From the NCBI GenBank assembly GCA_020091685.1, contig CM034605.1, positions 24,768,470-24,832,469 of the forward strand: a stretch of DNA of 64,000 nt. The letters run 5' to 3'. Both the position numbers and the translations under genes were made by a program. Below are positions 9,695 to 56,885 of the stretch, piece after piece. The notes beneath the pieces were generated by a model. It worked only from the letters and a program-made list of their open reading frames with translations, made no database searches and was not told the DNA's origin. Origin of the DNA: Lutjanus erythropterus. Lineage: Eukaryota; Chordata; Actinopteri; Lutjaniformes; Lutjanidae. The stretch's first letter is position 1. The number at the start of each line of letters is the position of its first letter.

Positions 9695-12029
9695 ATGTCT
9701 CTACCAAAGATCACACGTCTCCCCTCAGCGAGGCTGCTGAGCTCCATCTACCACCATCAGCACCAGCAGCTGCTCCACCCCTACATCACTCCTCTCACTG
9801 TGCCCAGAAGAGCTGTGATTCAGGGCGAATACAGAAGACCTGGCAAGCCCAAAGAAGACAAGTTTCCATGGCAGAAGATCAACTTTGACCTCTCAAAAGG
9901 TCTGGAGGGGATAAAGAAGCATTTCACTCTGCTAAAAAAGGAGTTTTCTGACCGCTGGGTCGGTCCCGAAGGCAAACCGATCCTTGAACACATGTTGGAG
10001 CAGAATCGAGTGTTGTGGGAGTTCAGAGGTCCGGAGAGCCTGGAACAGTGGACGGTGTCCTCAGACCGTGAGATCGGAGGACAAAGTGAAGTTTACTTGA
10101 AGCTTGGCAGAAACAGTAACACCTGTTTTCTGTATGGGACTCTGAATTCTACTCCTCCAAGGGACGGAGAAACACGCTACAGTGGCTACTGCACATTGCG
10201 CTCGCAGCAACCACTGGTAAGTGACCTAATGTTTTTTCTTCCAAAAGTTTGTGGAATCATACATTCACTTTTAATGAGGCTGTAATAAGAAACAGTTATT
10301 TTTATTCATCTGGAGGTAGTCTGACTTGTACATCAATCTGGCTAACTTACGCAGAAACAGATCGCATTTTAATACCAGGTGAAAACTGGGAGTAATTTTC
10401 TTAAAAAGTTGCAGCTCTAGTCCAGGGTCATTGAGGACACTGAGGTCATGTCTTTAGTATTTTCTCCAGAAATTTTGGGATTTTAGCTACCTGCGAGACG
10501 TTTTTACAAGCCGATTTCAGAACTTGATATATTTGAGACTGAATACTTTTAGCTTAATAAATAAATAAATAGACTGCAGTTGTTCCCCACCAGAACTTCA
10601 TTCTTGGCCATTGAGGAGATGTCTTTGAAAACAGGTTTTGGAAAATGAAATTGACGCAATAAATTCCTCAGTGTGTGCTATATTGACCAAGAAAACTGAG
10701 TTATCCTGCTTGCAGAACTGTGCCAGCGGTACCTATATCTCCCAGGATGCATTGCGGTGAGCTTCTGATGCTCACACCCATGTGTCACCACCCTTGCCTG
10801 TGGGTATTACTTAGTTGGCCAAAACATAATGTCATAAAATATTAATCTAGCGCACCCTGACCCCTGATTTTCCTTAACACCAACAACATCTGTGGAAATC
10901 TGCATGAAAAGTGCTGAACTTTCCCATTACAAACTAATAAGCAGCTACTAAATTAAACACCTCATACAATTATCTCTGAAATACTCCAGACAATTAAACA
11001 GGTAACCTCTCTGTTGCGCTCTCCTCTCTCTGCAGCCACTTTGGCAGGTAGCCAAAAATCGGGAACATGCGCACCAACAACAGCTATTAGTATTCACTCT
11101 GAATACACAACACACCAGCTGAATTTACAGACTAGTTTCTCTTTGTCCTCTGTGGTTTATTGGTTTAAGTTTGTTTTGGAAGGAGAACCTGTCCACACCC
11201 AAAGTCTGGAAATTATTAACTGTTCTTAAATTCATGTTGGTGGCAGTTGGAGGATCACTGCAGCTGCACTTAAAAGTTAAACACCCAACAACTTTTTGTC
11301 TCTCCCAGGCTTCATTTGATAGAAAAAAGCACCATGATTGGTCCAGTTTCAACACCCTGCATCTGCGTGTGCGTGGCGATGGTCGTCCGTGGATGATCAG
11401 CATTGCAACAGACAAATACTTCTCTCACCAGAAAGATGACATATACTGTTATTTCCTGTACACCAGGGGAGGACCCTACTGGCAAGATGTCAAGGTGAGG
11501 AAAAAGTAATTAAAACAAATGGATGAAACATCACAGAATTTGGAGAGAATTGCACTTTTACTTTTAGGAATACCTGCTTAATATTTGTTTTTTCTTTAAT
11601 CTAATGAAATCTAAGCAATGGTTCTAATACTCAAGTGATACTCATTCACAGATACCTTTCTCAAAGTTCTTCCTTACACATCGTGGGAGGATACAAGATG
11701 ATCAACATCCTCTCTGGCTTGACAAGGTAAAGCAAAAAAAAGTCACACTGACGTGAGTTACACTGTTGGTTCATCATCATCATTCCCTAAAGATGTTCTT
11801 TAATCTGTAGATGTTGTATTCTTATACATTTTGTTCCTTTTTTGTGCCCAGTTTAGTTTATAATTACTCCATCTTTTTGTATTTACAGGTGAACACCATT
11901 GGATTTACTTTGGGAGATAAAGCTGATGGTCCATTCCAGCTGGAGATTGATTTCATTGGTGCCTGCAAAGATTATGCACACACTGAGGAGTTTGCATACG
12001 AGGTGTACAAGAAGAATCCTGAAGTTTGA
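9695..12029 (+). CDS. ndufaf1: NDUFAF1 (CIA30), mitochondrial complex I intermediate-associated protein
   Basis: Four coding exons (9695-10216, 11309-11494, 11652-11726, 11889-12029) splice in phase 0 throughout to give 307 residues, close to the 327 of human. The N-terminus is rich in Arg, Ser, His and Leu with few acids, as expected for a mitochondrial presequence. The CIA30 domain runs from about residue 105 ([13 protein letters not shown]) to near the C-terminus, with [15 protein letters not shown] and a terminal strand segment including [17 protein letters not shown]. In the known family the protein acts in the matrix with ECSIT and ACAD9 in the MCIA complex during assembly of the complex I membrane arm. 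The 3' end converges on nusap1. The in-phase exon set and motifs leave little doubt. Confidence 0.96.
10217..11308 (+). other. ndufaf1 intron, no gene seen
   Basis: This 1.1 kb intron separates the large first coding exon from the second. It ends in a polypyrimidine tract and tctctcccag. No exon-like segment, clear repeat or RNA gene was recognised. Confidence 0.45.
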
Positions 12030-13220: not shown

Positions 13221-16200
13221 TTACATCATGACAAGGCCTCTTCTTGCCCCGAGTATATTCTCCTTCTTCTGCTTCCTGTCTCCCATGCGTTTTGCTCTCC
13301 TGTCCTCCCTAAAATAAGGCACAGGGACATCCATAAGAGACTGATGTTGTGAGAGTAAATTGTTACAGAAGACGAATCATGATCAGCCAGTGTGTGCTTT
13401 AATTTCAGACATACCTTGTCTGGACTTGGTGCTGTTTGTAGTTTTTCTGATGTGAGTTTGAGATCAGTGACTTGTCTCCTGCCAGGTTTTCTTTGACCTC
13501 TCCAAATGGCTTCAGTTTACCTATAAAAAAATAAACCATCAGGGATTTGTCTGTCTACTGATGACATTTCAGCGAAGCAGAAAAATTAAAAGTGGTTTTG
13601 TACCTGTATGAGGCTTGTACGAGAGGGGACGAGACAGACTCGCCTTCAGATCAAACTGTGGCTTCTTTTGTGTTCCTGGGGTTGTTGAAGTACTTGTGTT
13701 GCCGGTGAAAACAAATGGTGCTTTGGAATTCAGGAGAAAACAAGAAATCACTCACTATGTACATATCAATAGGAAAATTCATCATTCCAAACATCAAAAG
13801 GTAAAGGTACCTGGAGTTTTTGTGGCAGAGAAAGTCGAAGTCTTGACAATGTTGGTCTTTCCTCCATCAGCTGTCTGTTTTTGTGGGGTGCTTGAGGTCA
13901 CACATGGTGACATACGTGCTGGTGTCTTCACCATGGACCTCTTATACTCATTGTCATGAGTGGCTTCTGAGAACCTGCATACAAACACACTGATGTTAAA
14001 GCTTCACATTGGATATTACATACACAGCAATCTATCTGCAGAATCTGTATGCCAGGGACAAGATTTTGGTATTGGAAGTGTTCTGATTTCCATTTGTACT
14101 ACCAAAAATCACATTTGAGTAGTTGCATGCAGGTAAACAGTCCATGTGGAAAGCAAAAGAGGTGAAACTCTTTGGCCAACACACAATCTCAGAACCCCTC
14201 AGCTATTGTCTCGACCACAATGTAGGCTTTATTTTCTGTTCTTACAAAATGTAACTACATTCATATGCAGATATCCATTTATTGAGATTAATGTCCAACT
14301 CTCATCTCACATCTTAAGATGCCAATCAGACTGTATACAATATCTGGCACTAACAACTAACACCTGTAACAAGTATTGGTTTACACTTCTTTAACCTGTT
14401 GGTTTAAATGAGATTACATAGATGGAACACCAGATTTAGTTAAAAATCAAACATTTTTTCCCGGAGTATATTCTGATTCAATCATATTTCTACCCTTGAA
14501 AACATATTTGTTAAAATTAAGCATACTCAAAACTTTGAAAACTCTGTACAAACCCTGCTGAGGTACAAAACTTTGGCAGCCATGGCTTGTTACTGGCTAA
14601 ACCTCCTGGAAGAGTAAACAGTGTTTGGGTATTGAAATTAATTACCAGCAAATGCCTGAGGAAGAAAGAGTGACTCACCGAACGTTGATCCTGCGAGTGG
14701 AAAGGACAGACGGTCTGAACGGAGCGTCTCCATTCCCAGCTGGTTTACTTGGAGGAGCTTTACTGGCCGAGAGCAAAGTGTGTCTGCGTTTTTCCTCAGC
14801 TGCTCTCTTATTCATCGGGGCAGGGCTGAACATGGAAGCACGATTTGCCTTCTGTAGAATATATACACACAGGTCATCACCTTACTGCACTCTGGGAGTA
14901 GTTTTAATACACTGCAGCTGTAGTGTTTGTACAATCACAGCAGATTTGTGCTACATACCACTTGAGTTTTGCCATCAACTTGCTGCAGTTTAGTTTTGTC
15001 TGAAGGTTTCTAAAAAAATAAAATGAAATATAAATACAAACAAAAGAACATCAAGTTCACATACAGATATAACATTCAAATCTTTCTGAAAAAGTTAGTC
15101 AAGATTGTTTAGAAGCTTTTCAGTACCTTCAGTTCTTTAGCTGAATTTTTATAAGTCTCCATCTGCTTGGTCTTCCGCTGGAAGTAAGAGTCAATCGACT
15201 CCATCTTATTAAAATGTGCCTCATGGAGTTTCTTGAAGTCTACAAAAGGGACATGATTTACAAAAATTATTTCGAGTTTGTAGGAGAAAGCCACTTCCAT
15301 ACTGTCATGTGGGCCTTAAATGTTTATTTCAAAGGGAAGCTGAGTGAGAGCATCAAAAAATACAAAAGAACAAAATAACTTACTGGGAGTGACAGGCTTC
15401 AACAGCGGCTTGCTCTTTGTCTGGCCTCCTTGGTAACGAGGGATTTTACCGGGTTTGGTCACTTTTGATGCTTTTCCTGGACACAAAAATGGACGAAACA
15501 CAAAAGGATAAATATATGATCATAATTTCATGTTTAAAGGATATTTGGGATTATTCAAAGTGGGGCTGTGTTATGAGGCATTTATCAATAGTCATTGTAT
15601 TACCAACAGTAGATGCAAGTCAACACGCATCCAGTTTACAGAAGCTGAGAGGAGTACCAGCATAGAAGCTAAGCAATGCACTGCTGTGGACAGGATCAGC
15701 AACAAACCATATTTTAGCCACTTAAAAAAAACAAAACATTATTAGATAGAGGGTACACTATATTTAGAGTATTTTCACCTCTTTACTTTGCTGTCAGACA
15801 GCCTTTGTTGCTGACCCTGTCCACAGCATTACAATGCTCAGCTTCTGTACTTGTAAGAGGGGACGTGTCCACCGGCATCTACTGTAGGAATTACACTGAC
15901 TATGGATAAATACCTCATATGACCCCATTTTGAATAATCCTATCTACTTTCTTTTTAAAGTTAAGAATCTCATAAGAAAGACAACAGCAGCACACTGGGC
16001 TCCAGAAGAAAGAGGCTACACTAAGTAGAATAAATTTACAAGTTGTAAGTTTGTACCCTGTTTCGTCAAACCACACCACTAACCTGTATTGCCATGCACA
16101 GGTGCTTCATCCTTAATGTCAGTCTGCTGCTGCTCACTGGTTGTAGACTCAGTATCCTTCGTAGAGGACAGTTTTCTCTTCTTGGCACCCCGAGTACCAC

Positions 16201-18181: not shown

Positions 18182-21100
18182 ATGGAATTCGACGGGAGCA
18201 TTTTAATCAAGTGTCCCCCCGATGAAAAGCAGGTCACGGAGACAAAACACAAACAACAGATGACTCTCCACTGTCAGCAATGCAACACTGTTCTGGGGGA
18301 CACTTTCGGCGTCTGTGGGGAGATTAAAAGTATGGACTCTATCATGTGTCACAGTAAGTTCACTTCATCTCTTGCCCGTCAGAAAATAATAAAAGAGAGC
18401 AAATAGCAAGAAATCAGTTCATGTTGGTACACATGTAGTACTGCTTTTGCAGTATAGTGAGTGAACTGGTGTAAACCGATGTAACAATATTTTGACAAAA
18501 AATCTTATCTCAGGGTCCACTTCTAGATGGTCTTTCTCTGTGGATGGTTTGCTTAGTTGTCATGGAGATAACTCAGTTGACATCACATCACCCAGCTGTT
18601 TACATTAAGCTGAATTTGCCCATCCGTTCACAAAATTATAAGATGTAATTGGAAGCTCCAGAAAAACGTAGTAAGTGGACCTTGAGGTTTTGGGGGAGTT
18701 TTTGGCCAAAATACTGCAATTTTGTTTTACTGATTTGTTTTCATGAGCTGTGGTGTTGTTTGACAATCATTATATCTTGCTATTTTACATGAAATCTATT
18801 GCATTTTGCTAATTTGTTTTGTGAAATGTCATTTTATATTTTCCTTTGCTAATTTGTACATAATAATATCAGCCTAACGTGGGCCTATCACAGATATACT
18901 GTTTTCCAATATCATAACTTTTTTTACAGACCATATAATGCAGATAACTAAGCTTGCGAGATGTAAATACCAAGAAGCTGCTTCTTGTTTAACAGCCTGT
19001 CCCTAATTAAATGAAATAGTCAAAATAGTCAGGAATTTACCGTGAACACACAGTACTGATGTTTATTTAGCTACTTATTGTATTTATTCTTTATTTCCTC
19101 AGTGTTCATTTCTGTATGTTAATGTATTTAACATGAAAAAAACTAACTTAAATATTCCTAGATTGTTTGTGTTTTGTTTTCTTAAAGAAAGCTGCCTTCT
19201 GAGTACCTTTGTGTAGTCATATCAGTGCACAATCCAGATAGAAAAGGTCTATTTTCATTCTAGCTCATACACCATATCAGTAGTTTGATGATATTAATCA
19301 ATACCCTGCTGCTTGTCTCTCTTCAGAAGTAACCAATGATGTGGTTGTCAGTGATGCAGTGGAGTCAAAACATAAAGGAGAAATGCTTAACTGGTAAGTG
19401 GAAAAAAACAATGTGAGTTTGGAGAGCTGCAAATATACTTTAGTTATTCAGCTGGATACAATTTTCTGCTCTTGTAGAGGTCATTTCTCATGCAGCTGAC
19501 ACAAAGTTTCACTAGACCTTTTTCATGGCAGCCATCCTGACATGGAATAGTAGAATAAACACAGGTGTTATCAGTGATACTAATTAAGGTCCTGGCTCAC
19601 TGGAAAGGCTCTGCTAGATTAAATGGAACAGGACCTTAATTAGTATTATTGATAACACCTGTGTAGGGCTGCAACTGTCCCTCGAGTAATTTGACAAGTA
19701 TAACGTTTAAATTTGGACAACTAAACAAAAGTAATTTGATGGAAAAACATTGCAGATTATGTGATATTTCTTATGCATTTACTTGATTAATTACACCACA
19801 ATGTAATATCAGATTTAGGTTTAAAATAATAATAATCATGATAATTATGATTTAAATTCTGTATGGGGAACACAAGCTTTTTTTTTTCAATATGCCCCTG
19901 AGAAAGGCACACAGACTGTGGTTGTATGCATAAGTATCATCCACCGCCATCGTCTACAGGAATGCGTTCTTCTCAGTCAGCTCTTTTCTGTCAGTGTCTT
20001 ATTTTGTTTCCACTGTTATTGTTTCCTCTCAGCATCTACAGTTCTCTTAAGTGTCGCGGCTGCCGCTCTGCTGTGGGGAAAGTTATTCACTCAGCCCCGC
20101 CGCGTTTGGCCATGGTCCGCTCCGTCTTTCTCCTCCACAAAGCAAACATCAGCTGGTAAGCTCTGCTGCTTCTGTGAGCACACAAAGCATATTGACTTCT
20201 TGTGTACAGGTTTACTGCTGTCTGGAGAGGCTAAACTAAACAAGTGCCTTACAAGTGTTGTCCACTTTGTGAAAAGCTTTTTTTAAATCTCAGGTTAGAG
20301 ATAAAACAGCTGATTTCTCTCTCTCTTTTTTTTTTAGACTTTACTTTTGGTCATTCTGCAGACACTGTTAGTGAAAGAAGATTTTTGGCTACATTACTTG
20401 ATCCTTAAAAATCGCCTTTTTCATATTTTTTCTCTGCAGTTACATTCTCAGCAGCAGCTCAATGGTGGAAGCATCTGCCCTCACATTTGATCTGAAGACC
20501 TTCAGAGAAAGCATTAATGAGGTGAGACAAGTAAGGGATAACGTACAGTGAGCAGATCGTTATTGTAAAATAAATCCCGACAGGATGATGCAGGACCCCG
20601 ACACACATTTCACAACGATGACCTGCTCACTGCGCATTACCCTGCTTGTTACCCAAAAATCAATAACTTGACAAAAAACATTAATTTAAAATGATTAGAA
20701 TTAACACCTGCATGTACAGCTGCAGGTCATTTCATTCTTATACTCACATAATAGTCCCATAATCTGAGTACTATCAGTACTGTAGTGACATGTGCTAAGC
20801 CCTTACTTGTTCTATTGCAGTGTAATTTATTTGGCATGATTTTGTGCCACAAATTAAATAAATGTAAATGATGAGTCCTTTTAATAAACTCATTGAGTTA
20901 AGTTAAAGTTTAGCCTGAGTAACGTCTGAGGCAGTAACTCATCAGCCTCAGCTGCACTGCAGAAGCTTTTTTGTTGAGTGGAGAAACAGCATTCCTGCAA
21001 ATCCAGTTCTCTTTGAATTTGTTCTTCTGGATGTTTTCTTGCCTGTGAAAAAGTTCAGGTGTGATTACGTGCTAATGTGAAAGGAAAATTCAGGCAGAGA

Positions 21101-21570: not shown

Positions 21571-21576
21571 AATAAA
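21571..21576 (+). terminator. oip5: oip5 polyadenylation signal
   Basis: AATAAA lies 324 bp past the oip5 stop codon, followed by an A-rich then T/GT-containing stretch. It is the first canonical signal on this strand after the CDS. Confidence 0.6.
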
Positions 21577-23105: not shown

Positions 23106-24388
23106 CCATCCAATTGGCACCATGCTGCATTTTATTGCTGAATTTCTGATACAGATTCTTCTTCTTTATTTATTTATTTTTTTTTAGATAATACAAAACC
23201 AGACAAGAGGCTCACACGTAATAAGCATGCCCATTTCCTCCCTCTGGAGTGCATAGTTTCTACACAGTCCACCTCCTCAGTGGAAAAGTTGATCAACAAA
23301 GTAATGTCATTAATCATCTTACCTAAGCTTTTGTTTTTTGTTTTTTTCATGGGAACAAAGGTTGAATGGTGTTTTTCAGCTGCACTGTGGCTGTACTGCC
23401 ATGGTCATGTTTGGCACAACAGAGTGAGAGCAGAAACATTTAAAACTCTCTAAAATACTCTTTTTTTCTTTTTTTTTGGTGCAGTTTCGTCTGTAAAAAC
23501 CACCGCTGATGATCGAAGCTACTTTAACATGCTTGCTGTTGTGTCAAACAACCGTCCCCACATTGTCACCTCGTCACAGAACATCTGATATGAACATTTC
23601 ATTAGCCTAATTACACTCATTCACATTACAAAGTTGGATTATTGCATGCAATACAAATCATTCATTATTCTGCTAAAGTCATGCATATTTTTTAAACCCA
23701 TATATTCATGTTGCTAGACGCCTACTTGTTGATAAATCGTGATTATAAATCCCCACAAACGAAGAGCATTACAGGGTTTTCAGAACACAGTATTCAAGAC
23801 AGGATGGTGATGATGACGGTGCAAGTCAGTACATAGAGAGAAAGTGCTTTTCAAACAAGTGTCAAGTTCGTTCAGTAAGTCCTTTGCAGCCACAGAGTTA
23901 CTGAAAGTCTATATCTCTAAAAGGAAGGATGGGTTTTGATGTAAAAATGCTACAGGAACTGAAATTTAAAGCATCTCTCATGTACCGATTGGTTTTGATT
24001 CTTGTTTTGGTGCTTAAAGAATACAAGGCAGGGAAATTAGTAGTGAAAAATATACGTATTTACTTTATTTATCAGTGTAATAACATGCTACAGCTGTCCT
24101 CTGCAGGAACTATTCCAAACCTTTATTAAATGATGCCGTATCCTAAAGCCAAAAATGATACGATTCCCCCCCAGAAAAAACAAAAAACCTAAATAAAAAT
24201 GACTAATAGATAGCTACCGTAAGCAGGGAGGGAAAATCCTTTCCACATGACATTACGGACTCCTTTTTAACACTTACACCCTGGCACTAAACTCATGCAT
24301 TATTGTAGGTTATTGCTTCTAAAACTCTAATCAAATACAATTTTATGGATTAAAATATATCGCTCTGAATCCCAAAACTATGAGGTAT

Positions 24389-24396
24389 TATGTACA
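24389..24396 (-). promoter_or_regulatory. oip5-as1: Pumilio-type element in cyrano
   Basis: Read on the minus strand, TGTACATA fits the Pumilio consensus UGUANAUA. It lies in the terminal exon about 700 nt downstream of the miR-7 site in transcript order. One 8-mer can occur by chance, so the weight is modest. Confidence 0.35.
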
Positions 24397-25074
24397 ATAA
24401 AATGTCATGGTGAGATCTTAATTCTAGGGCTAGAAACACTACATCGGATCCCTAGCATTTATACCCAAATCTAAGATTAAATTACTTACATTTCTCGTAT
24501 GGTTTCTATCACTGTTACATCTGAGACTCACTTTTTGGGAGTTTTTTTGGCTGTTGAATAGGAGCTACCTAATTCTTTTGATGCTCTGAGGAATACAATT
24601 TAGGACATTTCTTACGCTTTTATTTCAAGATAAGAATCCTAAAAACGCACAGCAGCTCTGTTAGAAAGCACTTACTTATATTGAGCATATACGCCTATAT
24701 GATACAACTTCAATCAATACTTATTAACTGCATACCCTGATTGTGTCATACTTGTATTTTAAATCATGCAACTTATTCTACACCCGAGACACAGAACAAA
24801 AAAACAGGAGATTTTGCATTAGTCTAAGATTTTAGGGCAAAGCTGTATCTAAATGTGGTGTTTTTTAAAGGTGCAGTACGTCAATCTACCACCCTTTTAA
24901 TTTGACTGAAATGGTTTCAGCGGTTTTTGCGCTCCAGCTTAGTCTAGAAATCGATTTCACTATTTATTCTTCATGAAGCAAGCATCACTACTGGTCATGC
25001 ATGGCTACTATAATAATGTTGGCACCACAGTCCCGCTAAATAAGCTAATGCACATGAGTCTATACATATCTTAA

Positions 25075-25098
25075 TGGAAGACATTGGTGATTTTGTTG
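25075..25098 (-). promoter_or_regulatory. oip5-as1: Extended miR-7 pairing site in cyrano
   Basis: The plus strand reads tggaagac at 25075-25082 and gtgattttgttg at 25087-25098. These are the 5' eight and the 3'-side twelve nucleotides of miR-7 (recalled mature sequence), separated by attg where miR-7 has two nucleotides. The minus-strand transcript therefore pairs with miR-7 through the seed and an extended 3' helix around a small internal bulge, the layout known for cyrano and for target-directed microRNA degradation. Confidence 0.92.
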
Positions 25099-25433
25099 CT
25101 TTCAAACAACTTGTCACTTGTTTATACAATATACAGTTTGGTCAACAACATGACAGTTAAGATCAAATATTGCACAAATCCCGGTAAAATGTGATTTTTT
25201 TCTTATATAAAATCATAACAATGAAGCAAAATAAAGTTGAACAAATGAGACCAGGGTATCCTTCACTGTAAGCTTGGATTAAAAGGAAATAAAGCTGATA
25301 TTTTAGCACTGGTATCTCTCAGTTTACTGGACACAGAAAAGCAGCAGGTAGAGACGAAGCGATGTTTGATAAAGTTAACTGAGCAAAACAGATTTACTTA
25401 TTTTTCAGATTATTTCAAGTGGTGCTTGATTTA

Positions 25434-26074
25434 GTCTAGCTCCACCTCTCTGGACCTCGTGGAGCTCCTGCACTCAGGGGTGTGTAATAATTTTGCATCC
25501 AATGAAACGCCAATGAAAGATGCTACGAGAGTGGACTTGGTCAGGCCTCACTAATAACTGTACAAAAAACACAACTTTATTCACTGATTTGGGTGAAACT
25601 GGATCATATTTTATAGTGAAAATACTTTCTGGTTTTCCAATCCAAGTCCTCCGACTGCTTTGCTTCAGCTCCCCTGATTTACAGAGTTTCCTGATAGACA
25701 GATAGCTTTGCCTGTTGCTAAAGTAGCTAACTGCTGTTGTTAGCGGGTTGCAGACCACACTCTGCAGTCCCAGCCAGACTGAGACCGAACACAGCCTTGT
25801 AGGAAACACAGTTCTGACATTATTAACAGAGTCTGACTGCTCCTAACTGTAGTCAACTAGCTGCACAGCTAATGGAGCTAACTAGCTAAAGGCACTACAG
25901 TCAGCAGCAGTCAGCAGTTAACTACTTTAGCAACAACTAAAGCTATCCATCACTCAGGAGCCAAACCCGACAAGAAAAATCACCTCTCTACTCAATTCCC
26001 TGTCGTCAAACTAGCCTCCGTTGGTCGGGGCAGGCTGAGGTGCGGCTGGTCCTTGAGGTGGAGCTGGACTAGAC
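25434..26074. mobile_element. MITE-like element inside the cyrano terminal exon
   Basis: Imperfect terminal inverted repeats (gtctagctccacctc at 25434 and gaggtggagctggactagac ending 26074) bound about 640 bp. The interior carries subrepeats such as gctaactagctaaagg and tcagcagcagtcagcag. No transposase frame is seen. It would be transcribed as part of the lncRNA. Confidence 0.6.
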
Positions 26075-26567
26075 CAAGCTCCACCTATTGAGCTCTGCAG
26101 TGAGCAGCATCTTCATTACTTTGTTTGACACAAAAGGAGTCAAATGGCCAATTCTGTCTCTACCTGCAGCATGTAAAAAATGCATGCCAGCACGTTAAAA
26201 TGACAAAAAGAACATATCCAGGGTGGAAACACAAAATAAAGGGGGAAATATGTTTAGGGGGAGAAAGACAAAGACCAAATTAAGAGAATACTAAGGGAAG
26301 AAAACTGGACCAGACTTTCATAATAAAAGTGACTTTAGTTGCCAAATTTTAGGGATCTCAAGGATTAAGTCTACCTGCAACTTGTGAATAAACCTGCAGA
26401 CTTGACAAAGGAGAGCAAAAAAATAGAGCATGGATTAAAAATACTACCTTGTGACTTTCCTTTAGAATAGATGCATAGGGGACCACAGTTTGAGAGAGTT
26501 TTCCTCAAAATGGTTTAACTGAAAGCAAATGTTTTTAAACTAAAGCCAAATTCATCCAGAAACAATA

Positions 26568-26578
26568 CATATACATAC

Positions 26579-26620
<42 letters not shown>

Positions 26621-26632
26621 ACATATATATAT
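26568..26632. repeat. (AT)n microsatellite
   Basis: An almost uninterrupted run of about 60 bp of alternating AT, with a few G/C interruptions at its edges, lies in the lncRNA terminal exon. It can form a cruciform or hairpin and is likely length-polymorphic. Confidence 0.9.
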
Positions 26633-28009
26633 GAAACTGCTGTGGCGCTTGCTTGACAACCTTTAAGTTTCTTGTACTGATCACGCTCCCTTTCACTCCT
26701 GTTGGACTTGTTATGACGATGAGGTAGTGCAAAAAAAACAAACAAAAAAACACCCTATGAGTCTAATTTAATCACAGGCCTTGATCTTTGCTACAGTATC
26801 TTGTGTCTTTACTTTCTTCCCAGGAAACGGGAGCAATTTGTTCATTATCAAACTGCTTTGATCTAATTACAGAGCGTGTGGGGACTTATTTTTACTTATT
26901 CAGGACAAATCAGTGACTACATTTACATGCAGCCGATGATCAAACCCAAACCTGACTGAAAAATACCAAAATCATGGAGATTTTCGGGCAACTACACTGG
27001 CCTTTCAGCCAACCTAGTGACTTTAAAGTCAGCATTTGGCTACATGTAGATGTAGTCAGTGTGTGCGTGATGGAAGTCACATTAGCCCACAGATGTCCTG
27101 ATTGATGATCATGCTGCAGAAACAGGCCAGCACAGTAGGGGATGCTGTGGAGGAGAGAGGGCCAATGTCCCAGTGACAGCAGGAAGTAGGCCACTTGTGT
27201 CCCAAAAGCCCAAAAGAGGTCATCTTCACCGTGACTCTCCGGTCTTTACCTCCATGGGTCTGGGTGGCTGAGGAAGGGATCTGTTGGCGGTGCTGGGGCT
27301 GGTGGTGTCGGCTTCAGCTGGTTTCACAACTGCATTGCCTGGAAAACCCATCCTGGAATGAAAATTCAATTTTTAGTTTGCATCAAACCGTGCAATTCTC
27401 TACACAATGATTTAGAGGCTTGTATAAAGATCTCTCAGTTCAAGAAAGTCTACAAAGAAAAAATAATGAAACTGTATGAAGGTAATGTGTTCACTTTATG
27501 AATTATTCTGTGGCACACAATTCCTTTTTTTCCTTCAAGTTTCTGTCTATATTGGTTGTTAATGAGGTTATCGGGGTATTGATGTTTCAACGCTCGTGAG
27601 AGTGCCATAAAAAAAAAAAGATCTGAGTGCTCATTAGGGATCTCAGTTCAGTCAGTCTTCATTGTCATGTAATGGAACTGTCCTACTTTGTCCGCTTAGG
27701 ACATTTTTCTTATATGACTGGTATTTATGGAGGCACTGAGTATCATTTTTTGTGTTTTTTATACTGTATATACTAGTGTTTAATTAAGGTTTGAAATTCT
27801 GGTATCATGTTCACTCTAAATGTTTTATCAATTTGTGTATTTGAACTGGTCCCTTCTAAAATTAAGCAGCTAAAAGATAAGACTATATTAAAGGTATCAT
27901 CTGGATATCTGTCTATGGGGTCTATAAACTGTCAGAAAATAGTGAAAAATACCTGTTACAGTTTCTTAAAGGCCAGCATGACATGTTAAGATATCTTGTT
28001 CTTAGGGCT

Positions 28010-28560: not shown

Positions 28561-29218
28561 CTAAGAAAACTGTACATATCCACAATGAAGAAGCTGAAAC
28601 TTGGGAATGTTTAGTATTTTTGCTTTAAACTTGTCATTTAGCAACAAAAATCCTGGACCTGTTACGAAATGGAATATGGGCCCACTGATTGTTAACAGGC
28701 CACTAAGTCCACTGAAGTGCTCTGACGTGCAGCAAATGTAGTAAATTGACTGATGTATTAGATACTGAATTGTTTTGTCTAAAATCACCGGAATAGCAGA
28801 ATGTACATTTAATATAAGAATTAATTTTCCCTTATAAGTACACTGCCAATTCCCAAAAGGAGTTAAATGTACAGAAAATTGTGTTAAAGCTGGGCACCAG
28901 GTCAGGCATGACTGAGAGGCACTGACCTTGGTGTGAGCGTTGGTCCGAGATGATGCAGAGGTATTTCCACTGTGGTTCGAGCTGCAGCTGCTTATAATGG
29001 TAAACAAAAGCCAGGGGGGATTCTTCCTCTACGGTCACACATTTACGTCTCCCGAACTGGACGTGTGCTGGGTTTGCTCTGGGGACAGCGGCCGCGCCGG
29101 GTGAGGACACATTTCGAGACGAATAAACCGAATATCTTCGGGCCCCCCTTTCCTCCCTCCGTACGCCCCGGGGAGGAGAAGGTCCTCTCGTCCCCTTCTC
29201 CGCACACCCTCCGCTCTA

Positions 29219-29310
29219 CGCCATTTTCGCTCTGTTACTACGAGCCAACGGAAGAGCGCGATGATTGAGCCGGAGAGCTGTCAATCAAAACTAAAGCCCG
29301 CCCCGGAAGT
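29219..29310 (-). promoter_or_regulatory. oip5-as1: Cyrano promoter: YY1-type and ETS-type sites
   Basis: On the minus strand AAAATGGCG (29219-29227) fits the YY1 element often found just downstream of start sites. Its ATG reads ATG GCG TAG, a two-codon uORF. CCGGAAGT on the plus strand at 29303-29310 is an ETS/GABP core. The GC-rich segment 29040-29270 contains cggccgcgcc and gccccgggg, fitting a CpG-island promoter. Confidence 0.6.
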
Positions 29311-29319
29311 ACCTCTTCT

Positions 29320-31973
29320 TCTGTTCTCATGACAGTTATCAATCAACTTTTGTGGTGCGTTTACAGGCGCTAATTGAAAACAGGAATGACCAAAATGAAC
29401 AAAAATCCATTAATTAATTGAGTTATTTTAAGTGTTGCCTAAATTAGTATGTCCCGATAGAGAAATGCACTCAAGCAAAAGCATCAATTAAAAGAACAGC
29501 CCCTTTCCGAGTGAAATATTTATGTACGATTATGTTAACAAGTTAGCTAGAGGCTTGCCATATTATATACTAACTTTTAGGTGGTCTATTTTAATTCAGT
29601 TAGCTAAATGTAATTGTTGGTATGTTTATGAAAGACGGTAACCAGTACTTACCCATAAACATAACTCTTATCCTTGGAAAAAATCTTTTTACATAAGAAC
29701 AGATCTCTGAAAAATTCACCAAGGAAAATAAATAAATGTATAAATAAATAATTTTTAATTTTCATTATTATTTCACAAGGAACTGTCATTATTCTTATAA
29801 ACATAACAGAAGAAAAATAATGCTTTGAAACTCTAATTTAAAACTTAATGTGAACCCCTAAACCCCTCACTGGTCTTTATTTTAAATTCATTTTTATTTT
29901 ATTCTTATGTATCTTTTTTTTCTTATTTTGCTCACTCTTATTATTCCTCTTCTGTTTTATATTTGAGTGTCATGATGCTTGTCTGTTGTCTGGAAAAGAA
30001 GTGTTTAGTAAAGTACTGTTTTATGCCATTTACTGTGTCTGTAATGTAATTTTCTTACACTTAAGTTGCTTAAATAAATAGCACTGCGACAGTCATTCCA
30101 TTGAGTAGTTGATCAGCAGAAATTGATTAATTGATTAATCACATTTTCAATTGATATAAAATTAATCAATATATTTTTTAAATTAATTTATCTTCCTGGA
30201 TTATTTGTTATTTCATCTCCCTCTGAGTTGGTGGGATTGCTAAGAGTACAATAGCATTAGTACATTAGCTTTTGCATTTCTTATATGTTTTCAAGTCTTT
30301 ATTATTGGGGAATTTCTCTCACACACAATGAAAATGAACTCAGTTTAGTGTTGGCCTAACATAAGTGTCTCACACAGTCTCAAGACTAAAATAAAACCAG
30401 ATACAGACTGTTAAGAAAACAAAAGCAGCCGTAATGAATGACACAAAGAAAGCATGGCACTTATTTTATTCAAATCAAATTCATGAATCACTTTGATAAT
30501 ACCTAGACCAACAGCACATAACATGTGAATCATATCCGACTGATAATCACGTAATGATTAATAAAATGGTCAGGCTGTAGTTCCTGCACTCCGCTGCTGG
30601 AGGGTGTCCTTGTAATGATTTAACAAACTCACATTAAAGATTAAAGACATTTGCACTCCAATTCATGAACACTACTGCCTGTACAGAAAATATAGTTTGA
30701 ATGCATTTGATTTTCTTTAGTATCTTGAACTCATCAATGGGAAAAAAAAAAAAGGTCAAAGACAAATCGAGCAGTGCATAATTCAACAAACATTTTCTTC
30801 TTAGCCACAGGGACACTGATCATATAAATAGAAGCATAGCGTTGTGAGTTTACCTGTTTTAAGTCTACAAACTAACTGGTCCACGGCCCAGTTTCCACCA
30901 CAGGGCCTGACGCTGCCAACCAGAGCTTTATTAAGACCCAATCAAGGGGTTAAACTGCCCTATGTTTGTCTGTGAAAACATGTGCCAGGGAAGACACACA
31001 TACTTGCCAAAGATATAGCAGCATTTCATGTGAAATCTTCATTATTACCACCACAGTTTTTAATGTGACCGAATAAGCAGGTCTTTAAAAACCACATTAT
31101 TCACACATTAAACAGCAGTGGCTCTAACAGGCCCCGGGTGGTTGCTGGCTTTCAGAGGTGGTCAAACATGCTTTGGTTGAAGTCCAACAATCGAAAACAG
31201 GAAATTTACAAACTATTGGCAGTAGCTAGGTTAAAAAAAAAAAATACACACAAACATGACCATAGGTTCCTGTTTACTGTTCGGATAATAACTTAGAAAG
31301 GGAGAACCAAAGTCATGGCACTTCAGTGAGTAAAACACGAAAAATCTGTGGAGCAGGTCCTGCTTTGTTTCGAGGGACAAACTTGCCTGGCTGGCTGCTC
31401 TGACTTGCCCTGCCTCAAGTCAAAGAAAAAGGAGTCATAAAGTCCTGTTAGCACTACAAACACTGTCTGCTTAGAAGTGGAATCACACATCTTACAAGTT
31501 TCACTTTGAACCATTGCATATGTACAGAGACAAAGACGCAGCTTGAGCTAAATATCCATTAAACAGCATGAGTAAACGTACTCACTGCAATTGCAAAAAG
31601 CTTTATCGTACCGTTGCTATAAAACTGTATTTCATGTGAAAGTGGAACAGCAGTGGTACTAACTGTGACCCTCTAAACGTTTTCTAATAAATAATGTTCC
31701 ATTACCGGGAAAAAAAAAAAAATACACAGTGACATTGCATAAAACAACCCAAGGCACGCAACTTTTCCCTTTGTTTACAGAGCAGTGCAAAGGCAGAAAC
31801 TCAGGATCTACGACATGATCTACCCAATGCTTGGTCTGACAGCGTGTACTCATACTGTGGGCCACAGCAGCCTGCTGAGAAGCTGGATGAGGTTGTGTTC
31901 TGACATCAACTGACATGTTGAAGCTCTACTCAAAATAAAAAGAAAAAAAAAAGAAAAAAAGAAAACAAGCAAT
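29320..31973. other. chp1 3' UTR and chp1-cyrano spacer
   Basis: From the chp1 stop at 31974 leftwards, the sequence is probably chp1 3' UTR as far as an AATAAA (complement) near 30465. The remaining 29320-30450 is AT-rich spacer upstream of the cyrano promoter. Both strands lack exon-like frames. A-rich tracts lie at 31230, 31709 and 31944. Confidence 0.5.
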
Positions 31974-34900
31974 TTAGTGCAGGAACCTAATGCTCATTTT
32001 CTGTTCCACGTCCACCTTCTCCAGCACCTGAGAAAACAATCGAAACAGAACAAGTTTAGACATTTGGAAGAACTGCTGGGCTGTTTCACTCCCAGGTTTA
32101 AACAGAGATCGACACTGGCTGTTAGTCAAGAATTTTGCTAAGCGTTAACAAAAAAAACATTTTATCAGTCTTGAAATTTAAATCGATTTGAAACATTTTA
32201 ACTTGAAAACCAGGGCTTTGATCGACCTCAAACCACAACCTTTCTTGTGCTGTCGCAGTCACTAAGCAAGGATACAAGATCTACTTTGTGTACATGCAAA
32301 GACATCCTGTGCTGAGTAAAATGTGTCCTTGGAATATTTGTTTTTCTTTTCTGTGGCCAATCCAAGGCTCTGGTTTGTGTCCCACTGGGGCCTCCAACGC
32401 TAAAAATGTACAGCATATGCTCATGGTAGTGGTACACGGTCAGAGCTTTTCATTAAAACCACCCTTCGAACTGGATTTGTTATGTTGTTGCTTCTTTAGC
32501 AACAACATAAACAAACCTTAAAACCTCTGGAAGTTCGGCTTTAAATAATGCACATATGATATCAAAGTTGAGTGTCCCATGAGGTATCCACAAATATCTG
32601 AATGAAAATAAAAGTTCACAACAATCAGTAAACCTTGTTTTTTAAAAAAAAACAGCTCATTTTGCAGTTTAGACCATTTGTCAAGACTGTGTAGACACGT
32701 TTTGATTGACATCTCCATCAGGAGTACTGGAACAGAAGCTAAACAATGTACTGCTGTGGACAGGGTCAGCAGCAAAATATATTTTAGCCACCTCATAATA
32801 GGACCACCTTAAAAAAAAAACATCAATATCACTTTAAAGCAGTGAGAAAAGTAAAATTTTATTGTGCGCTTACTTTGTCATCAGACAGCCTTTTCCCACA
32901 AGGAACTGAAGCTGTCATCTATGCTCTCCTCTGGTCTACCGCTGCCTTAATCACATAGTTTGTTTGTGTCGCTGAGGTTTATTGGTGTTTTAGCATTAGT
33001 TTGGATTTCAGGTCAACATTACTTGCTGCGGTTAGAAGCAGTTGTAAATCAGCAACTCCTGTGTTCTGAGGTAAAACTACTAATGTCAAAGGAGTCTGGA
33101 GCAAACGGCTTCAGTTAGACATTTTTGACTTGGCTCAGACTCAAAGAAGCAGATAAAGCAGGAGACGTTCTGTTGCACCCGTTCAGTGCAACTTAAGTGA
33201 GTAATTTTGCAATAACTGTACAAGAATAAACATAGCCAAATCAAAGTGAATTCTAAAGGGAAGAAAAACTTAAATGACAGTGTTTCATATTAAAACTAAT
33301 TTCTAATATTTTTATATGCTTACCATCGTGTACATAAAACCCTAAATTACATAGTGGGGATACACAAGAAATATCAGGGCTGATAAACTATGGGATGATA
33401 ATTTGAAATTTATATATTATTTATTATTCAAAAAGCACAACTCTAGCCGATTAATATTAGTCATAATAATATCTGATTTGACAGATTATTACTAAACATT
33501 TAATCTGAATTCTTAGGCAAAATGCTCTATAAAAGCCAAAGTATTTTTGTGAATTTTTTGTTGGACTAACAAAAAATTAAATAAATGAGAGAGTCAAAGT
33601 TTTCCATTAGATTTGGTTTGGTGCTACGGAATATTAAATCATCAATCTTTGCTCACTACATATTTTCCTACCCTAAGGTGTGCATAAACTACAGATTACT
33701 ACAGGTTATTTTTAAAATACAAAACAATGTGACATTCTCAGTTATCTTATCAATATCAGTCATGACAGACAGCTAATCATTGGTCATCAGTATGAGCTGA
33801 AAAAAATCTATGATGTACATCCCTATTTTAAAGTTAAAAGACCAGTGTGAATTTGGGTTTCCAGTGGCTTTAAGAAGTAAAGAATACAGCAGCATAAACG
33901 AGTACACAAGAGAATCGTATATGTAACTTGCCTTGATGAATTCATTGAAGGAAATGGAGTTATCTCCATTTGTGTCAGCTTCCTGTATGGTCCTATCAGC
34001 AATGCTGCCAAGCTGTTCATCTGAAATGTTTACACCAACCATCATCCTTAAGACCTGCGAAGAATGAACAAAAAAAAAAATCCCTTCATGGTTAATGAAA
34101 GATCAAATAATAGTCATCTCATGTTTCCTTAAACAATATGGCGAAATCTTTTGTAAACAATATGAAAGCCACACATATCAAGCAGCTGTGCTTAACTGCA
34201 GGAACTGCAAATACAATGAAAACAGATTTACTGAAACGGGTGGACAAGAATTACTTTGAGCTGCATGTTTAAGAGTGTTAAGAGGCTCGTGCCTCACATG
34301 AAGCGGGCCACGCACAAGTGTTTTGCGCAAAACAAGAGATTTGTCTGAGTCATTTAACCCTGAGCTTACGGCAATTGCAGGTCAACTCAATGTTACCGAA
34401 ACCGCGTTGACTTCACAGAGGGACAACAAATAACAGAGAGGGAAGCCAAAATACAGGATACGACACTGTCTGGGAGAAATCGACCTGTAGTTAAGGTGAG
34501 GTATCACCTCATTATCAGCAGGAGGGCAAAGTCTCCTCATCAACATGGAAATCCCTCTCGCTGCGCAGCATTTTGACATATGGACGTTGCACAATAGCTT
34601 TTGTTCCTTTGTTGAATATGAAATGATTGAAAAGCAAATATTTTCAGAGGCAGTAATAATGGATTTCCATGAAGAAAAGCAAACTTCACTGTGACTCAGC
34701 ATCCTATTTATATGACACACCAGTCCACTCACCTGCAGCAGCTCATCCCGAGAGATTTTGTCATCTCTGTCCAGGTCATACAGACGGAAGGCAACTGAGA
34801 AAATAAAATATAAATAGGTCATGGCAGATACAGTAAGCTCACTTTAATGAAATCCTGTGAATTTTCATGATGCCGGTCACCAGCTCCACCGGGACACACC

Positions 34901-55000: not shown

Positions 55001-56384
55001 TCCTGTTGCTACAAGTTGTGGGAGGAGGTGAGGCGACATTACTGTTGTTTGTAATGTAACCACTACAAAAACTGAAGAGAAATAGATGTATGTATGAGAG
55101 CATGTATGAAAGAGTTACAGAACTGAAATTTGTGTGTGCTATATCACATTTAGTAACAGTATTCAGTGTGACTGAGACTATTCTAACTCTCAACTGGGGA
55201 AGAAAGAAGGTCAACAACTATGAGAAGTCAGGAGGAAACAACAACTGGTTTCAGCTTAAACTGTGATAAAATTCCTGGCGATTAGGATTACTGTTTCAAA
55301 TTGTAATTATTGTGATAACCGTGTTTGATTAGTGAGGAAAATATTGTCCTGCATCAACCAAAGTAAGCAACAGTCTCCCAGCTGCAGGTGCAGCAGCAAC
55401 ATGGGTCTGTTTTGTGTCAGTGAAAACATTTAAATCACAAAGGACATGATGCCATTTCAAATCGCTGAGAGATTTACAGTATAAGACTTGGTCATTCTTT
55501 CAGTACTTTTTCCTGCACACTTTTGCAATGCATGTAAATACTGATGAACATAAGTTTAGTCACTGTAATTGTGAAATCTTCATACTGTTTCATCTCCGCT
55601 TGTAACTATTGCAAAATCTGAATATAAATGTATCAAGTAAATGAAAGAAAAATGTGAGACAGCACATATAAAAGAAGACAGAACTAAAATTTGTGTGCGC
55701 TATATCACATTTAAGGAAATGTTCAGTCTAACTGAGGCTGACATCTATTTACATATTCTACTAACTTGCTATCAGGGGAAGACTGAAGGTCATCAGCTAT
55801 GAGAACTAAACTATGGTGGGGTGTTTTAACACTTCAGGGAAAAGAGGAAGTAAGTCTGTATGTTTAATAGATTCGCTGCAGAGAAACAAAAAAATGTCAA
55901 CTCACTCCTCGTTCTGTGCCAAGTCGTCGTACATCATCACCACAATCTGCTCATCTGGGATGCCATTTTTGTGGACAATCTGGTAGGCATGGCATACATC
56001 AGCCTGAGAGACAGAAAATGAGCATTAACATCAAGGTCAGCTGGACATTTTTAAGAGGCTGGAAAAACTCTGGGATAGGAGAGCATGCATTATGAATGGG
56101 AAGTGGTATATCAGGAGGGTGAAGTTGATCTTATCATAAAACAAAGAAAACAACTGAGTCACACACAGTTTGCACTTGATAAGGTGACACTGTAGCAACA
56201 GTCTCGTGTAGTTTAACTGTTTCAGACCTCTCCTCACCTGGTGTCTGTAGTTGTACCAGCCATTGGAGCCTGCTACGAGGAGCACCCAGTTCTTCCCACC
56301 GTCTTCCTGCTGCTGCTGGGAGGGGAAAGCACTCACCAGCCCGAGACTCAGGCCGACCAGGACGAAGAACACCGACTGAGACAT
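43033..56384 (-). CDS. lgmn: Legumain (asparaginyl endopeptidase)
   Basis: Thirteen coding exons join in phase to 437 residues: 56238-56384, 55906-56003, 51806-51887, 51577-51659, 51384-51459, 50004-50066, 49775-49841, 48275-48393, 47386-47475, 45468-45674, 45188-45358, 44232-44299, 43033-43075. A signal peptide ([19 protein letters not shown]) precedes the C13 protease domain ([20 protein letters not shown]). Catalytic residues are His150 in TDHG and Cys191 in EACESGS. The Asn-Asp autocleavage site before the C-terminal inhibitory domain is Asn327-Asp328 (MMASND). The C-terminal domain has [11 protein letters not shown]. Human has RGD in VLRGDAE; here it reads KGD. In the known family it is a lysosomal cysteine protease cutting after Asn. 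The intron after exon 51577-51659 starts GC. A non-coding first exon (from 56726 up) precedes the coding exons. Confidence 0.97.
43150..43960. repeat. Dispersed repeats in lgmn last intron
   Basis: The left part (gggcgtcaccagcctttact, then gtctggagctgcaac) has the look of a common fish hAT-derived repeat. The part 43640-43930 is the partner of the copy at 33440-33720 in chp1. Together they fill most of the intron 43076-44231. Confidence 0.55.
45852..47330. mobile_element. Non-autonomous hAT-like DNA transposon in an lgmn intron
   Basis: The left end cagggtttctgcaggtc (45852-45868) and the right end gacctgcagagaccct (47315-47330) are imperfect terminal inverted repeats with the CAGGG start of hAT elements. 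The interior (1.48 kb) holds no intact transposase frame. The nearby subterminal ttttaaaacc and ttttaaggcc also match in inverted order. I could not establish an 8-bp target duplication. It occupies most of the intron 45675-47385. Confidence 0.6.
52100..53400. repeat. Cluster of three SINE/MITE-like copies in lgmn intron 2
   Basis: Copies near 52100-52260, 52655-53010 and 53020-53400 share the order: aactttgggttttgga, then gacaaaacaagac, then gacgtcaccttggac, with attaattgataat-type runs in the latter two. They are diverged from each other. The pattern matches a very common fish repeat; the name is not certain. Confidence 0.6.
55110..55815. repeat. Direct duplication within lgmn intron 2
   Basis: A segment of about 130 bp at 55110-55240 (cagaactgaaatttgtg, gctatatcacattta, then aggtcaacaactatgagaa) recurs in the same orientation at 55666-55815 (cagaactaaaatttgtg, gctatatcacattta, then aggtcatcagctatgagaa). 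The two copies are 0.55 kb apart and about 80-85% alike by eye. Confidence 0.65.
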
Positions 56385-56406
56385 GTCCTCACCTTCTGTG
56401 GGACTC

Positions 56407-56885
56407 CTGTATGGATGACAGTGACAGTTAAAACCTCCCGCTGTTAAATTCGCTCTTATAATAAACTGGCTGTTGTTTGTCGGGCTGTGAGGAAGCGACA
56501 AACAGAGACAGGTAAGAAAAAAAAACTGGCACAAACACCCCACCTGACTGACTGGATATCACATGATGATGATATCCAGGCTCCGAACATAGCTAGCTAG
56601 CTGGTAGCACAACACGCTAACAAAAAAACGACTTTTTAAAAGGCTGAGAATACCACAAAGCTAATTAAAATGTTAAAAAAAATCTCAGCGGAATTATAAA
56701 CAGACAACGCCATGTTTTCTCTTACCTTTTCTTTGCTGTGGTGAAGAAGGAGACAGCTGTGAAGTGACTACATAAACATATTCAGCAGGAGTCGATGGGA
56801 CATTTATACGTGACGTCGGGAAAAAAAACGGTGGATAGGAATGCTCCCGCAGCAGCCAATCAGAGGGCTCGAGGGGCGGGGCTTA
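56407..56885 (-). promoter_or_regulatory. lgmn: lgmn non-coding exon, first intron and promoter
   Basis: The coding exon starts after a CAG acceptor at 56409-56407. A non-coding exon ends at 56726 before GTAAGA, so intron 1 is 56407-56725. Upstream are a CCAAT box (56856-56860) and a GC box ggggcggggc (56873-56882). TCACATGA (56559-56566), an MITF/TFE-type M-box, sits in intron 1 within the hairpin ctggatatc...gatatccag. ACGTGAC near 56808 is a partial CLEAR match. TFE-family control of a lysosomal gene is plausible but inferred. Confidence 0.5.

Follow-up and report, generated by a model that had tools for sequence, protein, structure and literature searches.

A short stretch of DNA within a 64,000-nt sequence from Lutjanus erythropterus (contig CM034605.1; the whole stretch is called the window here) raises the question of whether its minus strand encodes cyrano, a famous conserved lncRNA, and whether the miR-7 site that it carries acts in target-directed microRNA degradation (TDMD). 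The cyrano element is recognisable from raw sequence alone, and an initial annotation had singled it out; the identification is right, though neither the gene nor the mechanism is new. The minus strand between ~29.3 and 23.1 kb is very probably the fish cyrano (OIP5-AS1) ortholog, with a predicted last exon carrying a conserved miR-7 site that would act by the established TDMD mechanism. Within this reading we infer transcription, splicing, the species' own miR-7 and TDMD itself. Coordinates are collected in Table 1; cited papers are given by PMC identifier.

Table 1. Positions of the miR-7 site, the Cyrano elements, the predicted gene parts and the neighbouring genes, counted from the first letter of the window
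Feature	Position	Strand	Details
NDUFAF1 (CIA30 domain)	10016..10207	plus	
NUSAP1 exons (NUSAP domain)	13602..15450	minus	domain found in all three minus frames
OIP5 exon (Yippee-Mis18 domain)	20031..20153	plus	E 1.2e-5; 25.8 bits, cut-off 26.6
Candidate last exon, with identified elements 2-9	23115..25326	minus	predicted acceptor 25326; 3′ end approximate, past the poly(A) signal
Cyrano GCAAUAAA, poly(A) signal / miR-137 site	23131..23138	minus	
Cyrano CUAUGCA, miR-153 seed match	23250..23256	minus	
Cyrano WGCAUGA, Rbfox-type site	24995..25001	minus	
Cyrano element 6, UGUAUAG, Pumilio-type site	25060..25066	minus	
miR-7 TDMD-type site	25075..25098	minus	12 bp + 4-nt loop + 8 bp pairing
Cyrano element 2, UGUGCAAUA, miR-25/92 seed match	25168..25176	minus	
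Candidate exon 2	27250..27352	minus	acceptor CATTCCAG, donor GGAG/GTAAAG, picked by eye
CpG-rich stretch, likely promoter and exon 1	28751..29500		GC 0.49-0.50, CpG o/e 0.85-1.01
Candidate exon 1	28927..29260	minus	5′ end arbitrary; donor CCAAG/GTCAGT picked by eye
Cyrano element 1, ATGGCGTAG	29216..29224	minus	AUGGCG starts a 2-aa ORF (Met-Ala-stop)
CHP1 exon (EF hand)	34706..34795	minus	4/5 matched PDB sequences p22/CHP1, the weakest CHP2

Pairing of the site with miR-7

The plus strand at the site reads TGGAAGAC-ATTG-GTGATTTTGTTG, and the initial annotation, which had seen in it the eight leading nucleotides of miR-7 plus twelve later ones, proved exact in both coordinates and pair counts. 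On the minus strand, CAACAAAATCAC (25098-25087) forms 12 bp with miR-7 nt 11-22 and GUCUUCCA (25082-25075) forms 8 bp with nt 1-8, giving 20 Watson-Crick pairs in total and bearing out the proposed pairing of a minus-strand transcript by seed and long 3′ helix. The target loop CAAU (25086-25083) lies opposite miR-7 nt 9-10, in agreement with the proposed central bulge of 4 target nt against 2 miRNA nt. RNAduplex gave -29.5 kcal/mol for the duplex with 24-nt miR-7 and -26.8 kcal/mol with the 22-nt form, and a G-U pair at miR-7 nt 23 is a possible extra pair. The miR-7 used was the standard sequence, of which the 22-nt string is also printed in papers mentioning zebrafish.

The annotation had also placed this layout among those that cause TDMD, consistent with excerpts of PMC10899785 and PMC13083262 in which triggers pair through the seed and an extensive 3′ region across an internal loop, with ZSWIM8 directing AGO ubiquitylation. 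According to PMC10899785, 12 of 13 validated triggers have at least 6 bp of contiguous 3′ pairing, 3-11 nt are unpaired, and the seed match is typically an 8mer with a flanking A/U dinucleotide. At the fish site GUCUUCCA is an 8mer followed by UU, and both the loop at miRNA nt 9-10 and the 3′ pairing fall inside the limits seen for validated triggers (PMC10899785), the 12 contiguous 3′ pairs standing above the 6-bp mark.

Several controls address how readily such a site arises. With as many as three mismatches allowed, the 64 kb contain a single instance of the pattern, which has no mismatch, and 2 of 100 dinucleotide shuffles contained a match at this tolerance. The window holds nine miR-7 seed-match sites (three minus, six plus); the 3′ helix is 12 bp at 25075-25098 and at most 3 bp at the other eight, as judged from a descending list of the four best sites on each strand. 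When the miR-7 sequence itself was shuffled, none of 500 versions formed a 12-bp 3′ helix at any place in the window; the longest helix was 11 bp for one version, 8 bp for three and 7 bp or less for the remainder. The exact 24-base site had no match in viral contigs. Searching for the 20 paired bases with a gap of 0-8 returned 6 matches in a prokaryote collection and 14 in viral contigs, and among these 20 none had a gap of 4, nor did a motif of the element-2, Pumilio or Rbfox kind lie within 150 nt of any of them.

The viral-contig matches were considered as mimics of the miR-7 site and set aside, being mostly of gap 8 and lacking Cyrano motifs. A gap of 8 was found in 11 of the 14, ten of which are one recurrent sequence or its one-base variant: seven copies, and three with one base changed, match both miR-7-complementary blocks. 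This recurrent sequence is perhaps a shared coding stretch.

Accessibility of the site is ordinary, with an opening cost of 7.9 kcal/mol that was equalled or exceeded in 65 of 200 random sites. The surrounding core region does not fold better than its shuffles, whether taken as 71 nt (z -1.30; 23/200 as stable) or as 121 nt (z -0.87; 38/200 as stable). Two small hairpins overlapping the halves of the miR-7 site scored z -2.55 and -3.11 (4/200 and 3/200). We make no structural claim for them, because they were picked after the fold had been seen and because the excerpted PMC8250186 judges a proposed Cyrano cloverleaf inconclusive.

The flank 'cttaa...ctttcaaacaac' had been suspected of being conserved, which is likely because the published 67-nt element includes the Pumilio motif (PMC7798263, excerpt). 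Such conservation would then point to the Pumilio site or other constraints more than to contacts with ZSWIM8: in PMC13083262, flanking RNA of ~25 nt to either side contributes irrespective of its sequence, which makes a contact-based account less apt.

Conserved elements, predicted anatomy and gene order

PMC7798263 describes nine Cyrano elements, each retained in 17 or more of the 18 vertebrates compared, a set that includes seven bony fish. Eight of the nine could be identified from the text, two of them being the miR-7 halves, which were judged by pairing and not by the published k-mers. All eight are present on the minus strand, ordered as published. The six other than the miR-7 halves are correctly ordered, on the same strand and near their published spacing: UGUGCAAUA precedes the miR-7 site by 69 nt, the Rbfox-type site follows the Pumilio site by 58 nt, and CUAUGCA comes 118 nt ahead of the poly(A) signal, against ~60, ~55 and ~100 nt, respectively, in PMC7798263.

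Single minus-strand copies of UGUGCAAUA and GCAAUAAA were found in the 64 kb, together with 5 of AUGGCG, 4 of UGUAUAG, 14 of WGCAUGA and 4 of CUAUGCA. Since the shorter motifs recur in the window, order and spacing carry the argument for identity. Dinucleotide shuffling never produced the chain of element 2, Pumilio and Rbfox motifs, with the miR-7 site left out (0 of 300 shuffles). It did produce the miR-153/poly(A) pair, in 21 of 300, which makes that pair weak when taken alone.

The predicted gene begins in the CpG-rich stretch, inside which ATGGCGTAG falls at 29224. Of the 500-base segments scanned across the 64 kb, those at 28751 and 62751 alone combined GC ≥0.5 with CpG o/e ≥0.6. For the last exon, two acceptors, 25326 and 27144, passed a simple filter that serves as a prediction only, and the predicted spliced lengths are 2663 and 4481 nt, respectively; published Cyrano lengths range from 2340 to 10155 nt (PMC7798263, excerpt). 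The longest ATG ORF in either predicted splice form is 58 aa, and the predicted RNA contains no long coding region, a feature by which Cyrano was judged. A Pfam search of the three minus frames of 23.0-29.3 kb found nothing better than E 0.093, a match far below its cut-off. Most of the cyrano anatomy can be traced here in a spiny-rayed fish, namely a CpG-rich start, a mini-ORF, regulatory sites and a poly(A) signal.

Within the predicted second intron lies an AT-rich microsatellite (26565-26632). A stretch of ~830 bp (25341-26170) is bounded by 15-nt inverted repeats (93%) and has nested inverted repeats inside; it is MITE- or foldback-like and stops ~15 bases before the predicted acceptor 25326.

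The locus shares with Cyrano/OIP5-AS1/linc-oip5 of vertebrates, among them the seven fish of PMC7798263, the miR-7 site, the loop length, the 2-aa ORF, the order and near spacing of the elements, an oip5 gene downstream and a predicted length of ~2.7 or 4.5 kb. Excerpts of that paper give a mini-ORF of 2-3 aa at the Cyrano AUGGCG and report a perfect TISU context there. The sequence around ATGGCG differs in this respect: ATGGCG itself is present, but the 12-base TISU consensus has no minus-strand match, a deviation in an accessory, non-defining feature. In the mini-ORF region (29213-29228, minus strand), Met-Ala-stop is kept and the surrounding TISU consensus is not.

Downstream of cyrano lies OIP5, running convergent with it, followed by NUSAP1 and NDUFAF1; CHP1 lies upstream. 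This arrangement agrees with human gene order. In zebrafish, by comparison, the excerpted PMC6347452 lists oip5 downstream of cyrano and tmem39b upstream; here the gene identified upstream is CHP1. A likely OIP5 poly(A) signal, read by eye, lies at 21571, leaving ~1.5 kb to the cyrano signal at 23138; the two RNAs therefore converge, and overlap is not required. A PDB search for OIP5 with the three plus-strand frames of 17.0-23.0 kb gave no match. The NDUFAF1 piece most resembles proteins of fish and places the window in a spiny-rayed one. Among the best 120 of 241 matches, the species named are all spiny-rayed fishes, with Thunnus thynnus first (86% identity, 87% of the query covered), and many of the matches carry no species name. 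Farther away, a legumain-like N-terminal exon lies at 56040-56558 on the minus strand (Peptidase_C13, E 1.3e-4, 22.1 bits against a Pfam cut-off of 22.8).

The naming of the locus as cyrano in the initial annotation is upheld by the six ordered and spaced elements outside the miR-7 site, all on one strand, by the CpG-rich setting of the ATGGCG and its 2-aa ORF, by plausible splice sites and the lack of a protein domain, and by the OIP5/NUSAP1/NDUFAF1/CHP1 neighbourhood.

Mechanism and alternative explanations

If the established mechanism applies, AGO-miR-7 would bind cyrano through the seed and the 12-bp 3′ pairing across the 4 × 2 loop, and the 3′ helix would draw the miR-7 3′ end from the PAZ pocket. 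ZSWIM8 would then recognise the altered AGO plus the RNA flanking the site, and AGO would be ubiquitylated and degraded, with the loss of miR-7. In excerpts of PMC13083262 (2026), wild-type CYRANO has a loop length of 4 (LL4), and altering it lowers both ZSWIM8 binding and AGO polyubiquitylation. The target loop found here equals in length that of the mammalian trigger, for which a structural account of ZSWIM8 recognition appeared in 2026, and this equality fits the same mechanism in fish. This fish cyrano is most likely a miR-7 TDMD trigger.

Other RNAs provide points of comparison. The TDMD triggers Nrep/libra (miR-29b), Serpine1 (miR-30b/c) and viral HSUR1 (miR-27a) each differ in both the microRNA and the host RNA. 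Cdr1as/ciRS-7 shares with cyrano the binding of miR-7, but it is circular, has 130 sites and protects miR-7, whereas the cyrano described here has one site with trigger geometry.

A different main role for a real cyrano in fish has to be weighed, be it as a platform for Pumilio, Rbfox or HuR, as a target of other miRNAs or through the act of transcription, with miR-7 decay being minor. The Pumilio, Rbfox, miR-92 and miR-153 motifs are likewise conserved, and according to the excerpted PMC6347452 zebrafish cyrano deletion mutants develop normally, without overt phenotype, morpholino effects being non-specific. These phenotypes speak against importance for the whole organism, a matter separate from TDMD itself. 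Against a minor part for miR-7 decay stand the trigger geometry kept in the miR-7 pairing and the excerpted report that a site in Cyrano lowers miR-7 by >97% in some mouse tissues (PMC10620050), and we regard a main role elsewhere as unlikely. That the locus is a duplicated or dead copy of cyrano and not a working gene is highly improbable: duplicates of the Cyrano region are present in human and mouse (PMC8250186, excerpt), but here the CpG-rich stretch, the candidate introns, the poly(A) signal, all eight identifiable elements and the OIP5 neighbourhood are retained. A chance likeness to miR-7, or a plus strand that is a decayed mir-7 hairpin, would account for the resemblance of that strand to miR-7 itself, yet its probability is negligible in view of the shuffle, seed-site and prokaryote/viral-match controls, an Rfam search with no family at gathering score anywhere in the window, and the independent Cyrano elements around the site, with element and gene order strongly opposed.

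Extended pairing to miR-92 at element 2

With the locus read as cyrano and a miR-7 trigger, one new question is whether its miR-92a/b site does more than a seed site would. Beyond the seed, element 2 (25168-25190, minus strand) forms, through a CCGGGAU stretch upstream of UGUGCAAUA, 6 Watson-Crick pairs with miR-92a/b nt 12-17, or 7 at nt 11-17 with one G-U, and its duplex with miR-92a was computed at -25.1 kcal/mol (RNAduplex). Other family members form fewer Watson-Crick 3′ pairs (miR-25 and miR-363 four each, miR-32 two); with G-U allowed the counts are 8 for miR-25 (nt 11-18), 5 for miR-32 and 4 for miR-363. Because G-U pairs are weaker, this pairing would select against miR-25. Of 20000 random 25-mers drawn from the transcript region, 160 gave at least 6 Watson-Crick pairs, as did 22 of 20000 shuffled versions of the real upstream stretch; at least 7 pairs with G-U allowed occurred in 297 and 9 of 20000, respectively. 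This extra 3′ pairing at the miR-25/92 site was observed at the one locus examined.

In this fish, cyrano might on this basis be a double trigger, in which the bipartite element 2 (site at 25176, 8-nt seed match) favours miR-92a/b and promotes their ZSWIM8-dependent decay, a proposal that we hold to be quite improbable. Loss of Cyrano in mouse mainly changes miR-7, which counts against a trigger role towards miR-92. The pairing also stops at nt 17 and leaves the miRNA 3′ end free, and miR-25 reaches its eight pairs once G-U is allowed. Only the 9-mer is conserved in all 18 species, according to excerpts of PMC7798263, where these miRNA sites are read as plain seed matches that target the lncRNA itself. 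In favour of the proposal, miR-92a and miR-92b are the ones in their family that are sensitive to ZSWIM8 in mouse. PMC10620050 views the miR-92 site in Cyrano as regulating Cyrano itself, and no claim of miR-92 decay by Cyrano was found in the excerpts of the literature examined, those of PMC10620050 included. The miR-153 and miR-137 sites at their published positions have four contiguous 3′ pairs each.
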